From Streptomyces otsuchiensis (GTDB taxonomy: Bacteria; Actinomycetota; Actinomycetes; Streptomycetales; Streptomycetaceae), in contig NZ_BHZI01000006.1 of assembly GCF_004305975.1 (NCBI RefSeq), positions 1-48,999 on the forward strand: DNA of 48,999 nt, read 5' to 3'. Shown piece after piece: positions 9,562 to 12,756 of this stretch; position 1 is the first letter of the stretch; each line of letters starts with the position of its first letter. The position numbers and the translations under genes are program-made. Under the pieces are notes generated by a model. That model saw only the letters and a program-made list of their open reading frames with translations. It was not told the origin of the DNA and ran no database searches.

Positions 9562-10659
9562 TCAGGCCACGCGGACGCCGAACTGGAAGGGCATCGAGTT
9601 GACCCCGGCGTAGCTGACCGTGGAGCCGGTCCGCGGCGCGTGCAGGATCTGCCCGTTGCCGACGTAGATGCCGACGTGGGTGATGCCCGCGTAGTAGAAC
9701 ACCAGGTCGCCGGGCTGGAGCTGGCTCTGGGAGACCCGGGTGCCGGCGTTGGCCTGCGCCTGCGAGGTGCGGGGCAGCGAGATACCCGCCTGCTTGTACG
9801 CCCAGCCGGTGAGGCCGGAGCAGTCGAAGCTGTGCGGGCCGGTGTTGCCGAAGACGTACGGGGAGCCGATCTTGCTCTGCGCGGCGGAGATGGCCGACTG
9901 CGCGTAGGAGGACCCGGATCCGCTGTCCGCCACCGGCGTAGTGGTGGTGGCGGAGGGGCTGTCGGTGCGGCCCTCGCTCCGGCTGGCCCGGTCGGCGGCG
10001 GCCTCCGCCTGCCGCTGGGCCTCCGCCTCGGCGGCGCGCTCCTCGGCCTGGAGCTGCTGGCGCTCCTCCTCCGTGAGGCGGTTGAGGAGTTCCCGGGCCT
10101 CGCCGAGCTTGGCCTGGATCGCGTCCTTCTTCTCCTTGATCTCGGCGCGGGTCTCCTCCAGCGTCTCCAGCTTGGTGGTGGCCTCCTCGCGCTGCTGGGC
10201 GAGGGTGCGCTGCTTGGACTCGATGTTCCGCAGCACCTCTGCCTGCTTGCCGGTGACCTGGTCGAGCGTGGAGGCGCGGTCGAGGTAGCCGTCGGGGTCG
10301 GCGGAGAGGAAGAGCTGCACGGAGGGCGTCATGCCGCCGTTGCGGTACTGGGCGGAGGCGACCGAACCGACGCTGTTGCGCAGTTCGTTCAGCTCCTCCT
10401 GGCCGCGTGCGACCGAGGTCTGCAGCTCCTCGGCCTCCTCCTTCAGCTGCTCCTCCTGCTCCATCGCACCGTTGTATTCCTCGGTGATCTCGGTGGCTTC
10501 TTCGTGGAGCTCGTCGACGCGTTCCTTGACCTCGGCCTTGCTCGGGTTCGGGTCGGCGTGCGCGCTCTGGGAGGAGAGGGCGACGGTGGCAGCCGCGGCG
10601 GCACCGAAAACGGAGACACGGGCGCGGCTCGGCTGCTTGGGACGACGGTGGGACGCCAC
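9562..10659 (-). CDS. secreted NlpC/P60 peptidoglycan hydrolase with coiled-coil domain
   Basis: 365-aa exported hydrolase. It has a basic N-terminus (MASHRRPKQPSRARVS), a hydrophobic core and a signal-peptidase-like site at SAHA-DP near residue 36. A strongly charged Glu/Lys/Gln coiled coil spans about residues 45-225, a Ser/Thr linker follows, then the NlpC/P60 domain with Cys280 (DCSGL), His328 (THVGIY) and His340 (LHAPR). The paralogue just downstream has the same architecture. Such coiled coils often hold the catalytic domain inactive until it is recruited by partner proteins (family knowledge). The gene is preceded by about 400 bp without a gene, including a highly structured leader, which suggests post-transcriptional control. 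Confidence 0.93.
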   Translation of the reverse strand: MASHRRPKQPSRARVSVFGAAAAATVALSSQSAHADPNPSKAEVKERVDELHEEATEITEEYNGAMEQEEQLKEEAEELQTSVARGQEELNELRNSVGSVASAQYRNGGMTPSVQLFLSADPDGYLDRASTLDQVTGKQAEVLRNIESKQRTLAQQREEATTKLETLEETRAEIKEKKDAIQAKLGEARELLNRLTEEERQQLQAEERAAEAEAQRQAEAAADRASRSEGRTDSPSATTTTPVADSGSGSSYAQSAISAAQSKIGSPYVFGNTGPHSFDCSGLTGWAYKQAGISLPRTSQAQANAGTRVSQSQLQPGDLVFYYAGITHVGIYVGNGQILHAPRTGSTVSYAGVNSMPFQFGVRVA

Positions 10660-10675
10660 TGGGGCGATCTCCTTC

Positions 10676-10811
10676 TTCCTCAGCCGCCTGCCGGTCTCCC
10701 GGCCCCGCGTTACTGCCGCGGATCGGCGGTTCCTCCACGGCCACCCCGGATGAGTGAACTACCGCGCGAAGGTTCGAGGCCAGACCATAGCGACAGGGGA
10801 AAGCAACCTTC
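10676..10811 (-). ncRNA. candidate structured 5' leader (cis-regulatory RNA) of NlpC/P60 gene
   Basis: On the minus-strand transcript several helices can form in order: a long-range GAAGGUU/AACCUUC pair (10805-10811 with 10768-10774); a stem joining GGUGG to CCGCC across a loop with GGAGGAACC (about 10725-10745); CCGCG/CGCGG with a 7-nt loop (10705-10721); and GCCGG-GAGA-CCGGC (10690-10703) capped by a GNRA tetraloop. Then come GAGGAAGAAGGAG and the start codon. I recall an Rfam-style NLPC-P60 motif in Streptomyces and ydaO (c-di-AMP) switches before Streptomyces wall hydrolases, but could not match the full ydaO consensus here. Assignment to either is open. Confidence 0.5.
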
Positions 10812-10852
10812 AAATCCCCACGGCGATTTTTTACTTACCCGGTACCCGTAGC

Positions 10853-10865
10853 TACCGAAACGGTA
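10853..10865. promoter_or_regulatory. inverted repeat upstream of NlpC/P60 leader
   Basis: TACCG-AAA-CGGTA lies in an unusually A/T-containing stretch (10820-10890) for this genome, immediately upstream of the structured leader. It is a candidate operator or promoter-proximal site. The remainder, 10866-11041, shows no gene. Confidence 0.3.
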
Positions 10866-11041
10866 CGTTCCGTGGAAGATAAACCACCCGCAAGGGCAAC
10901 AGCTCCCCAGCAACGCGTCGTTCCGGACAACGACCGGTGCGCCCGATTCGCTCCCCGCTCGTCCGGCTTGACAAGTACGCCGCGTCCACCATGTGATCCA
11001 CCTCTCCCGCGTCCGGCGCGCCGGACGCCGGCACCGGGCGG

Positions 11042-11076: not shown

Positions 11077-12756
11077 TCAGGCGCGCGCGAGCCGCTTCAA
11101 CAGCAGTACCGATGCCACCGGGCGCGCGCCCGCGCGCGCGACCCCGTCGGCGACCTCCCGATCGGCCGAAACCACCACCACCGGACGGCCGGGCGGCTCC
11201 GCCCGCACCAGCCGCCGGATCAACTCGTCGGCGGTCTGACCCGACTTCGAGAACAGCACCCGGACACCCCGCGGCGGGGCCAGCAGGACCGGAACGTCCA
11301 GCTCCGCACCGTCGAAGACGCAGGTCACCTCGGCCGAGGTCTGCGCCGCCAGCATCGCCAGCCCACCCAGCAGCCGCAGCCGCTGCTTGTCCAGCGGCAT
11401 CGTGGGATACCCCGTCTTGGTGACGTTGTAGCCGTCCACGACCAGGTGGGCCTGCGGGAGGGCCAGCAGCTGGTCCAGCAGCGCCGGGTCCTCCTCGGAC
11501 AGCGCCCGGTTGGCGATGTCACGCGGCGTCAGTGCGCCCGGCTCCACCGCCTCCACCGTCTGGGCGGGCCTGAACTCGACCGGCGGAAGGGCGAGTTCGC
11601 GACGCAGACCCTGGGCCGCCTCCAACACCGTGTCCAGCAGCAGCCGCAGACGCATGTCCTCCACGCTGCGGCCCTCGCGGGCGGCCCGGCGGCCGGTCTC
11701 CAGCGCGGTCTCGGACTCCGCCAGCCGCGCGCGCAGCCGGCGCGCCTCCGCGTCGGCCGCCGCCCGCTCGGCGGCGGCCTCCGCACGTACCGCCTCCAGT
11801 TCGGCGCGCAGCTTGCGCAGCGCCGCCTCGCCCCGGCGCACATCGCTCTGGGAGCTGCGCAGCTTGCGGTGGACGGCGTCCGACTCGCGCCGCACCGCGT
11901 CGAGATCCACGCGGTGCCGGTCGATCTCCTCCCGGGTCCCGGCCCGCAACCGCTCCACCTCCTCACGCAGCCGCTCCAGTTCGCGGGCGCGCTCCTCCTC
12001 CGCGTGCTCGGCCTCCGCGCGCAGGGTCTCCTCGCCGGCCGCCACCATCAGCTTCACCCAGCCCTGGGGACGCAGCACGTACGCCGCGGCGGCGACCTCG
12101 ACCGGGTCGGCGGCGGGCGGGACGGTTCCCTGGGTCAGCGCGTCCGCGAGGTCCGGCTGTTCGGCCCGCAGCCGGGACGCCACCCGGTGCCGGAACCCGG
12201 CGTCGGTCTCCAGCGCGGTGGCGATGGCGGCGGCGCCGTACTTGACGCGGCGGGTGGGGGTGAAGCGGGCGTACTGGCGCAGTGGCGGCGGCAGTTCTGA
12301 GATGCGCATCCCCGCGAAGGTCTCACCCGCCATGACCACGACGCGGTGGCGGACCCGCTCCGGCAGCGGGCCGTCCGGCTCCTCCCCGTCGGCGTCCCCG
12401 AAACCGCCGGAACCGCCGGAACCGCCCGAGCTGCCGGAGCTGCCGGAGCCCCCCGGCGGTGGGGGCGGAGCACCGGCGCCGCCGTGCCCGCCCGTCGCGT
12501 CTGCGTCTGCTTCGGCCTCGGAAGCGACCCCGGAGTCCGGGGAACCGTGCTCACGGCCGGGCTCACCGGCGGGTTGGTGCCCCGACTCGTGGCTGTCCGC
12601 GCCGTCGTGCTCGGGCTCGTGCTTGGGCTCGTGCTCGGGTTGGTGCTCGGTCACGGCGGCGGCGCGCTGGGCACCGGCCGCGCCGTCGGTCTCCTCGGCG
12701 GACGGGCCGTTGGCGCCCGTCTCCCCCGCTGGAGTGGATGCGGACACGGTCTCCAC
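11077..12756 (-). CDS. NYN-domain (YacP-like PIN-fold) protein with coiled coil
   Basis: 559-aa protein. About residues 1-130 are low-complexity, acidic and His/Pro-rich with imperfect repeats of the PEHEPKHEPEH type. A helical region follows (about 135-245, including GETFAGMRISELPPPLRQYARF), then a long charged coiled coil (about 245-385), then a C-terminal NYN/PIN-like domain (about 430-555) beginning LVVDGYNVTKTGYP and containing TCVFDGAE and VVSADREVADG. The acidic residues match the metal site of YacP-type ribonucleases, so RNA cleavage or RNA binding is likely but unproven. The GTG start at 12756 lies 6 nt after the stop of the zinc-ribbon gene, which suggests coupled translation. Confidence 0.85.
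   Translation of the reverse strand: METVSASTPAGETGANGPSAEETDGAAGAQRAAAVTEHQPEHEPKHEPEHDGADSHESGHQPAGEPGREHGSPDSGVASEAEADADATGGHGGAGAPPPPPGGSGSSGSSGGSGGSGGFGDADGEEPDGPLPERVRHRVVVMAGETFAGMRISELPPPLRQYARFTPTRRVKYGAAAIATALETDAGFRHRVASRLRAEQPDLADALTQGTVPPAADPVEVAAAAYVLRPQGWVKLMVAAGEETLRAEAEHAEEERARELERLREEVERLRAGTREEIDRHRVDLDAVRRESDAVHRKLRSSQSDVRRGEAALRKLRAELEAVRAEAAAERAAADAEARRLRARLAESETALETGRRAAREGRSVEDMRLRLLLDTVLEAAQGLRRELALPPVEFRPAQTVEAVEPGALTPRDIANRALSEEDPALLDQLLALPQAHLVVDGYNVTKTGYPTMPLDKQRLRLLGGLAMLAAQTSAEVTCVFDGAELDVPVLLAPPRGVRVLFSKSGQTADELIRRLVRAEPPGRPVVVVSADREVADGVARAGARPVASVLLLKRLARA

Follow-up and report, generated by a model that had tools for sequence, protein, structure and literature searches.

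A leader RNA of about 120 nt lies between a promoter-like pair and the start of an NlpC/P60 hydrolase gene in Streptomyces otsuchiensis, and the question raised by this locus is whether that RNA is a riboswitch and, if so, of which kind. The DNA analyzed, referred to as the window, spans 48,999 nucleotides, and the features described below lie on its minus strand. The hydrolase gene (9562-10659; PF00877, E 6.4e-29) reads as secreted and coiled-coil from its sequence and is the first member of a tandem pair downstream of an NYN (YacP-like) gene (11077-12756; PF05991), which adjoins ydaO-NlpC in other families and provides an upstream synteny anchor. The leader is neither an intact ydaO riboswitch nor an unrelated new one; comparison with its relatives indicates that it almost certainly originated from ydaO, as a 'decapitated' c-di-AMP riboswitch (RF00379). 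Homology, synteny, the absence of pocket motifs, repeated loss on a tree and covariation of the 5' hairpin P0 can each be read from the sequences. Taken as a whole, the locus is probably best explained as a ydaO-derived, c-di-AMP-blind translational leader that retains the P1/start-codon machinery, where origin and pocket loss are far firmer than mechanism.

The putative promoter, recognized by pattern, comprises TTTGAA (10814-10809), a 19-nt spacer and TATGGT (10789-10784). Transcription is predicted to start at about 10780-10775, and the leader RNA would run from about 10780 into the coding region. Inspection of this RNA locates on the minus strand all of the elements named in the original prediction, that is, at least four helices, a GAGA tetraloop and a long-range 7-bp pair, together with a closing helix, P1, absent from that list. 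The 7-bp pair is P0 (CCUUCGC/GUGGAGG, 10772-10766 with 10738-10732, two G-U pairs), within which are nested a second hairpin, P0b (10757-10752/10746-10741), and an internal loop that is conserved; together these form an extra, covarying domain (10732-10772) 5' of the aptamer base. The part homologous to ydaO follows as CCGCC-GA-UCCGCG...CGCGGG-GCCGG...CCGGC-A-GGCGG plus the Shine-Dalgarno (SD) region. Its components are the P1 5' strand CCGCC (10725-10729), placed by two covariance model alignments described below; the P2 hairpin UCCGCG/CGCGGG (10722-10717/10709-10704); P3, GCCGG/CCGGC (10703-10699/10694-10690), closed by the GAGA loop (10698-10695) at the site that lacks about 85 positions of the ydaO model; and the P1 3' strand GGCGG (10684-10688), which may instead pair with the pre-start segment (UCGCC in the window, one G-U pair). 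The SD region GAGGAAGAAGGAG (10669-10681) is the same in 30/30 loci of the first set and aligns with that of ydaO loci in other families. A start hairpin pairs CGCC (10666-10663) with GGCG (10657-10654) across the GUG start codon (10659-10657) and is predicted to form with a probability of 0.99 in the window.

Conservation and covariation among relatives support the proposal of a structured cis-regulatory leader before the NlpC/P60 gene. By blastn, the stretch 10640-10890 matches 137 of 150 Streptomyces genomes, some over the SD/start part alone. An alignment of 29 leaders contains five helices (P0, P0b, P1, P2 and P3) in which 97.1% of cells pair, a value that falls to 37-50% when partners are slid. 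The covariation check on orthologues that had been suggested finds compensatory changes, with double changes in 19 cells where shuffles give 6.1 (0/500). Such changes exceed those of shuffles for P0 and P0b, and for P2 within the 29-leader test. P1 is almost without covariation in the family, its 3' strand being nearly invariant, and the SD and start hairpins are likewise nearly invariant, leaving covariation nothing to score. Folding energy of the leader is no better than that of shuffles (z +0.55 and +0.83), and minimum-energy folding was therefore not used as evidence. The predicted fold of the leader also contains a GCGGU/ACCGC helix overlapping P0 and P1; this was set aside, as several Streptomyces rows and full forms do not keep it by eye. 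A protein-coding explanation was rejected as well, since length differences between leaders are not multiples of three.

To what does this structure belong? Two covariance models were used, R1 built from 29 leaders of the window's pocketless type (stumps) and R2 from actinobacterial ydaO RNAs. In 296 genomes of the class, R1 finds matches in 25, of which 17 are Streptomyces and 8 lie elsewhere, and 8/8 of the non-Streptomyces matches overlap canonical RF00379 at 77.6-96.9 bits. In these eight alignments P1, P2, P3 and the SD fall on those of ydaO, with the 60-79 nt aptamer as an insert inside P3. In the other direction, R2 run over the 49-kb window with E up to 10 yields a single match, 10670-10738 on the minus strand (25.8 bits, E 0.001; E 6.5e-6 when searched unfiltered in 301 nt). 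Its alignment contains the basal P1-P2-P3 helices with the GA/GAG joint of RF00379, and 4 nt replace 85 model positions. Those 4 nt are the GAGA loop, and this loop therefore marks the scar of pocket loss. The S. anulatus stump behaves similarly with R2 (35.8 bits, E 1.1e-5), with 14 nt standing in for 80 positions. Counting against this line of evidence, R2 is poor at finding stumps: it matches 4/15 other Streptomyces loci, all at the stump, with 21.0-37.1 bits. The link to ydaO drawn in the original prediction was thus right as to origin and wrong as to the reason given, the homology residing in the P1-P2-P3 base and the SD. The segment GGAGGAACC, likened there to a part of ydaO, lies where P0 meets P1 and is not the GGAACC element of ydaO, and the CAGCUAACC element that could not be found is missing together with the pocket.

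Reciprocal model matches of this kind bear on the reading that the leader is an independent RNA class with a chance likeness to the ydaO base. The window has no Rfam match at gathering level, as an independent class would, yet the models recover each other, full and stump forms share position, gene, a like promoter and P0, and both forms occur inside the single genus Actinacidiphila (g120); we regard such an origin as barely credible. That Rfam silence, obtained on running the suggested check, extends to RF00379 (gathering 38 bits), which has no match in the window at gathering and none on the leader alone at E up to 10. With E up to 10, Rfam returns two miRNA names for the leader, on the opposite strand, and nothing else; at gathering level it returns none in the loci of 11 relatives. 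Weak names met along the way (GRIK4 3' UTR, miRNAs, Glutamine-II, snoU82P and a plastid intron; E 0.03 to 7.5) were taken as chance. NLPC-P60 is the name of a conserved RNA motif before NlpC/P60 genes. No Rfam match so named occurs among the matches listed for the window, leader and relatives' loci, and no RNA of that name appears in the literature searched.

The pocket motifs GGAACC (after the P3 5' strand), GGGGUGAAUC and CAGCUNACC (before the P3 3' strand), as well as the inner helices, are absent from the leader and present in full relatives. A c-di-AMP riboswitch that had diverged while remaining intact and able to bind its ligand would share the P1-P2-P3 homology, and the gene type is typical of actinobacterial ydaO (PMC9960051, in the part cited). 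Against such a switch stand the missing GGGGUGAAUC and CAGCUNACC, the lack of an RF00379 match even at the loosest threshold, and the ability of Rfam to find intact copies in the same genome, where four RF00379 matches above cut-off served as positive control. The leader is thus not an intact switch, and a diverged, binding one is very improbable; the stump RNA is very probably blind to c-di-AMP. Within the family, Rfam finds RF00379 in 16/16 full loci submitted (16 of 30) and in 0/4 pocketless leaders. One of the intact copies in the genome of S. otsuchiensis (G000:C5:28262-28424, or L031:4263-4425; 53.3 bits) precedes another NlpC/P60 gene, about 2.4 kb beyond which lies a second NlpC/P60 gene. 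A GTGGCGTCCCACCG pattern sought in this genome with two mismatches was noise, giving 209 matches versus 215 for the reversed pattern.

Relatives were next compared at the same locus with the NYN protein as anchor, which was found in 96/197 class genomes; downstream DNA was taken from 79 of the 80 non-Streptomyces genomes (G313 was omitted owing to a split match). In other families, 29/79 NYN loci carry full ydaO (R2, 57-126 bits), two of them (L212 and L215) being the same places as R2 training sequences, and 50/79 carry no full ydaO, which counts against the explanation favoured here. In 18 of the 29, no more than about 220 nt separate the ydaO from the start of a downstream NlpC match. Among the remainder, L183 and L164 end too soon, L204 has its NlpC domain about 830 nt further on, and L235 is without an NlpC match. 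The ydaO of family f17 (7/29) follows an NlpC-like ORF and is not in the same spot, and was not taken as direct support. Two further f17 loci have the look of decayed ydaO: L188:2154-2229 keeps P1 around a new hairpin (R2 25.7 bits), and L196:390-566 keeps P1, P2 and CCGGGGAACC with the other pocket motifs gone (R2 23.9 bits).

In the family Streptomycetaceae, NYN is present in 81/81 genomes. From 46 of its 66 non-Streptomyces genomes, made up of 26 best-scoring loci and 20 chosen across other genera, 30 loci carry full ydaO (54-106 bits), 13 carry a stump (all g120) and 3 (g118) match neither model. Full and stump leaders have a like promoter, the same 5' hairpin P0, the same SD and the same start; synteny and the rooted tree described below both place the stump as a descendant of a ydaO leader at the same locus. 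Among named stretches, one SD/start pattern occurs in at least 118, of which 109 are titled Streptomyces. These 109, among the matches listed, comprise 100 stumps, 1 mini leader and 8 without the strict promoter pattern, and pocket motifs occur in 0/109. Full leaders among the matches listed are those of Streptantibioticus silvisoli, Mangrovactinospora gilvigrisea and Yinghuangia seranimata; three of four Actinacidiphila there fall in the stump class and one is cut off, and [Kitasatospora] papulosa and an uncultured Streptomyces have stumps. The A. glaucinigra leader (L320) looks intermediate by eye, retaining GCCGGGGAAC and then breaking off, and has no R2 match at E 1. Stump leaders of paralogue type stand elsewhere in the genome in L090, L099-L102, L333, L356 and L367; those of L099-L102 differ in their promoter region (near CTAAG.TGATTAGTATGC), and P1 in L099-L101 resembles CGCUG/CAGCG.

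The history of the loss was traced on a tree of NYN plus NlpC coding DNA with 107 rows (34 full, 61 stump, 11 mini and 1 other), rooted on four outgroup rows picked among full-ydaO loci, a root that is weakly supported (68). L008 and L088 (short NYN), L027, L092, L093 and L095 (no NYN), duplicates and paralogues are omitted from it. Three changes between full and lost states are seen, in g118 (one row), in 13/14 g120 rows and in Streptomyces, where 59/59 tree rows are pocketless on a branch with support 94. Because 30 of the Streptomyces loci entered as best blastn matches of the stump, their stump state is partly selection; the 16 Streptomyces genomes anchored on NYN are free of such bias. 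The earliest branches within the family are full, and the stump holds the ydaO base, which together argue for loss and not gain. Breakpoints differ between the lines by eye, and the platform is retained in two of the three lines of pocket loss. In the family's forebears, then, a c-di-AMP (ydaO) riboswitch would have stood between the NYN and NlpC genes, and in the Streptomyces line everything enclosed by P3, namely the c-di-AMP pocket of about 80-85 model positions, would have been lost, with the promoter, P0, the P1-P2-P3 base and the SD/start kept and P0 and P2 showing compensatory changes.

The 16 Streptomyces genomes drawn regardless of leader, S. otsuchiensis included, divide into 8 with stumps and 8 with mini leaders of 52-53 nt, which are without P1 and the P0 3' strand. 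The stump is dispensable in that one clade. Mini leaders at this locus in other Streptomyces (L085-L089, L138, L139, L141-L146) have the same promoter type and a CGAACC start, and in several of them the SD lies, by eye, between arms like GGUGA/UCACC or ACGGG/CCCGU.

This dispensability bears on whether the stump is a passive relic without a regulatory role, its P0 and P1 being harmless 5' UTR or general mRNA stabilisers. The P2 and P3 loops vary freely, P2 and P3 are gone in several genomes, and P1 and half of P0 are gone in the mini-leader clade, all as a relic would allow. The loss nevertheless dates to the base of Streptomyces in the tree, yet P0 still shows compensatory changes, and the stumps of Streptomyces and g120, despite different breakpoints, both retain the GGCGG strand and the SD. 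We consider a passive relic rather unlikely.

P0 itself was analyzed in 60 leaders, full and stump (59 distinct). P0/P0b have 96.2% paired cells with double changes in 10/13 pairs, and the 59 distinct leaders hold 59 double-change cells against 16.8 in shuffles (0/500). That conservation and covariation across full and stump leaders could mean that P0, which has a conserved internal loop, is itself a sensor or a site of protein binding. The NYN-NlpC leader would then be a former two-domain device, a P0 sensor and a c-di-AMP aptamer on a shared P1/start-codon platform. Streptomyces, and independently Actinacidiphila plus one further genus, would have excised the aptamer, and in at least the first two control would have passed to an undescribed P0. 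P0 is retained in the stumps of Streptomyces, g120 and, by eye, the one g118 leader read; a P0 model (R3) matches once or twice in each of 75/101 Streptomyces genomes and at none of 31 other Streptomyces ydaO loci (best E 0.18). Set against this, the model has no match among 83 loci of other families (best E 0.084) and none in 26 of the 101 Streptomyces genomes, the P0 3' strand is gone in the mini leaders of half of the genomes drawn regardless of leader, P0 has no known ligand or protein partner, and its role could be mere 5'-end protection. Control by P0 is therefore a doubtful reading, both as a new function and as the remnant of a two-domain switch. If true, a riboswitch would have exchanged one signal for another through the deletion, not the mutation, of an aptamer. 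Some loci of other families show a hairpin beside the aptamer by eye, despite the lack of a P0 model match.

Returning to the c-di-AMP-blind translational leader, how might its retained base act? GGCGG has two possible partners, the 5' CCGCC and a pre-start CCGCC; once ligand holds P1 closed, the pre-start segment would be available to mask the start codon. In the ancestor, c-di-AMP would close P1, taking GGCGG from the pre-start CCGCC, and the freed CGCC would pair with GGCG over the GUG start, switching translation OFF. Among 35 ydaO loci of other families, in which related rows are counted more than once, the 20 with a GGCGG P1 3' strand include 11 with a perfect Watson-Crick pre-start partner versus 0.52 when shuffled (0/2000), or 15 versus 2.7 with G-U allowed (0/2000); the 15 with another P1 3' strand include none with a perfect partner. 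Counting against the scheme, the window's own pre-start partner of GGCGG is imperfect, failing by Watson-Crick pairing and succeeding with one G-U. Codons 1-2 contain GGCG, a further possible partner for the pre-start segment.

Forced folding was used to compare the two forms. Of 66 stump rows, 14 had too few alignable P1 pairs (below four); in the other 52, imposing P0 and P1 costs a median of 3.7 kcal/mol, versus 8.8 in 30 full RNAs without ligand, a gap of which RNA length may be a partial cause. The lower cost suggests that the stump is nearer the closed state without ligand. In full RNAs the start hairpin goes from 0.04 to 0.65 once P0 and P1 are forced. Results that count against the scheme are the modest rise on enforcing P1 in stumps (0.40 to 0.60), the window's value of 0.99 either way, and the window's unconstrained fold, in which the P1 strand pairs upstream at 0.06 and downstream at 0.64. 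In the stump, P1 would be cheaper to form ligand-free, giving a constant, damped translation rate, and timing would then pass to the promoter and perhaps to P0. This fixed set-point is the most likely single account of mechanism, and we hold it tentatively, at a little short of an even chance.

Comparison with known systems places the leader more precisely. With the c-di-AMP riboswitch ydaO/yuaA (RF00379) it has in common P1-P2-P3 and their joining letters, the place before NlpC/P60 and a purine-rich SD directly after P1. It differs in lacking everything inside P3 and the ligand-pocket motifs, and in having the extra P0, which is common to full family copies at the locus and not found by model at the other ydaO loci of Streptomyces. 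The ydaO leader of C. glutamicum nlpC, a translational OFF switch with c-di-AMP, is likewise an NlpC/P60 leader thought to be translational, and answers to c-di-AMP, whereas the stump is pocketless (PMC9960051, in the part cited). Start-codon masking by a liganded P1 would, by analogy, fit that OFF behaviour; in the same part of that source, its authors suggest a different pairing from the GGCGG/pre-start scheme (PMC9960051). The ydaO leader of S. coelicolor rpfA shares the riboswitch class, a cell-wall hydrolase and the genus, and differs in that it binds c-di-AMP and is reported to act on transcription (PMC10117811, in the sections cited). The sections cited of PMC10117811 and PMC8079986 put the number of ydaO leaders in a Streptomyces species at six or seven; the stump would not be expected among matches to Rfam's ydaO model in such counts. 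In the literature on relic or degenerate riboswitches and on the NlpC gene, searched with subscription journals mostly outside coverage, no such leader is described.

Riboswitches are usually described as intact or absent. Here one locus presents the full switch, the stump and near-complete loss side by side. A base without its pocket offers a way to test the behaviour of an expression platform that no longer has a ligand, the steps by which a wall hydrolase leaves second-messenger control, and the possibility that P0 acts as a second sensor. Rfam annotation misses such descendants, so that lists of Streptomyces c-di-AMP targets would omit a hydrolase gone from the regulon.

The promoter pattern TTTGA[AT]-18/19-TANNNT occurs in 103/103 locus rows, full and stump, which is partly selection as the rows had been preselected with a looser promoter pattern; leader rows needed loose promoter and start patterns, and L090, L098, L102, L130, L275 and L277 failed these and were dropped. 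The strict pattern is absent in 8/109 Streptomyces-titled records among the matches listed. The window promoter fits the S. lividans -10 element, TAnnnT, as given in the part cited of PMC8079986. The TACCG (10865-10861)/CGGTA (10857-10853) repeat named in the original prediction is present; it lies upstream of the -35 box and is for that reason probably a DNA feature, not a part of the RNA. It falls in a region (10825-10870) that also holds a GTAAGTAAAA stretch, and relatives keep GTAAAGAA-like stretches upstream of the -35. This region is possibly an activator or MtrA site. SCO2136 is presumably a gene of the NYN-NlpC leader locus. MtrA, a response regulator of S. coelicolor, shifts a probe made from the region upstream of that gene, and in an mtrA mutant SCO2136 is up at one time point at least (PMC5650626, in the part cited). 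Given that assignment, these data would fit a passing of control to the promoter. At the other end of the leader, the first five codons (10645-10659 in the window), GTGGCGTCCCACCGT, are identical in 83/103 locus rows, preselected with a loose start pattern, at synonymous sites too, an identity that may reflect constraint at the RNA level.
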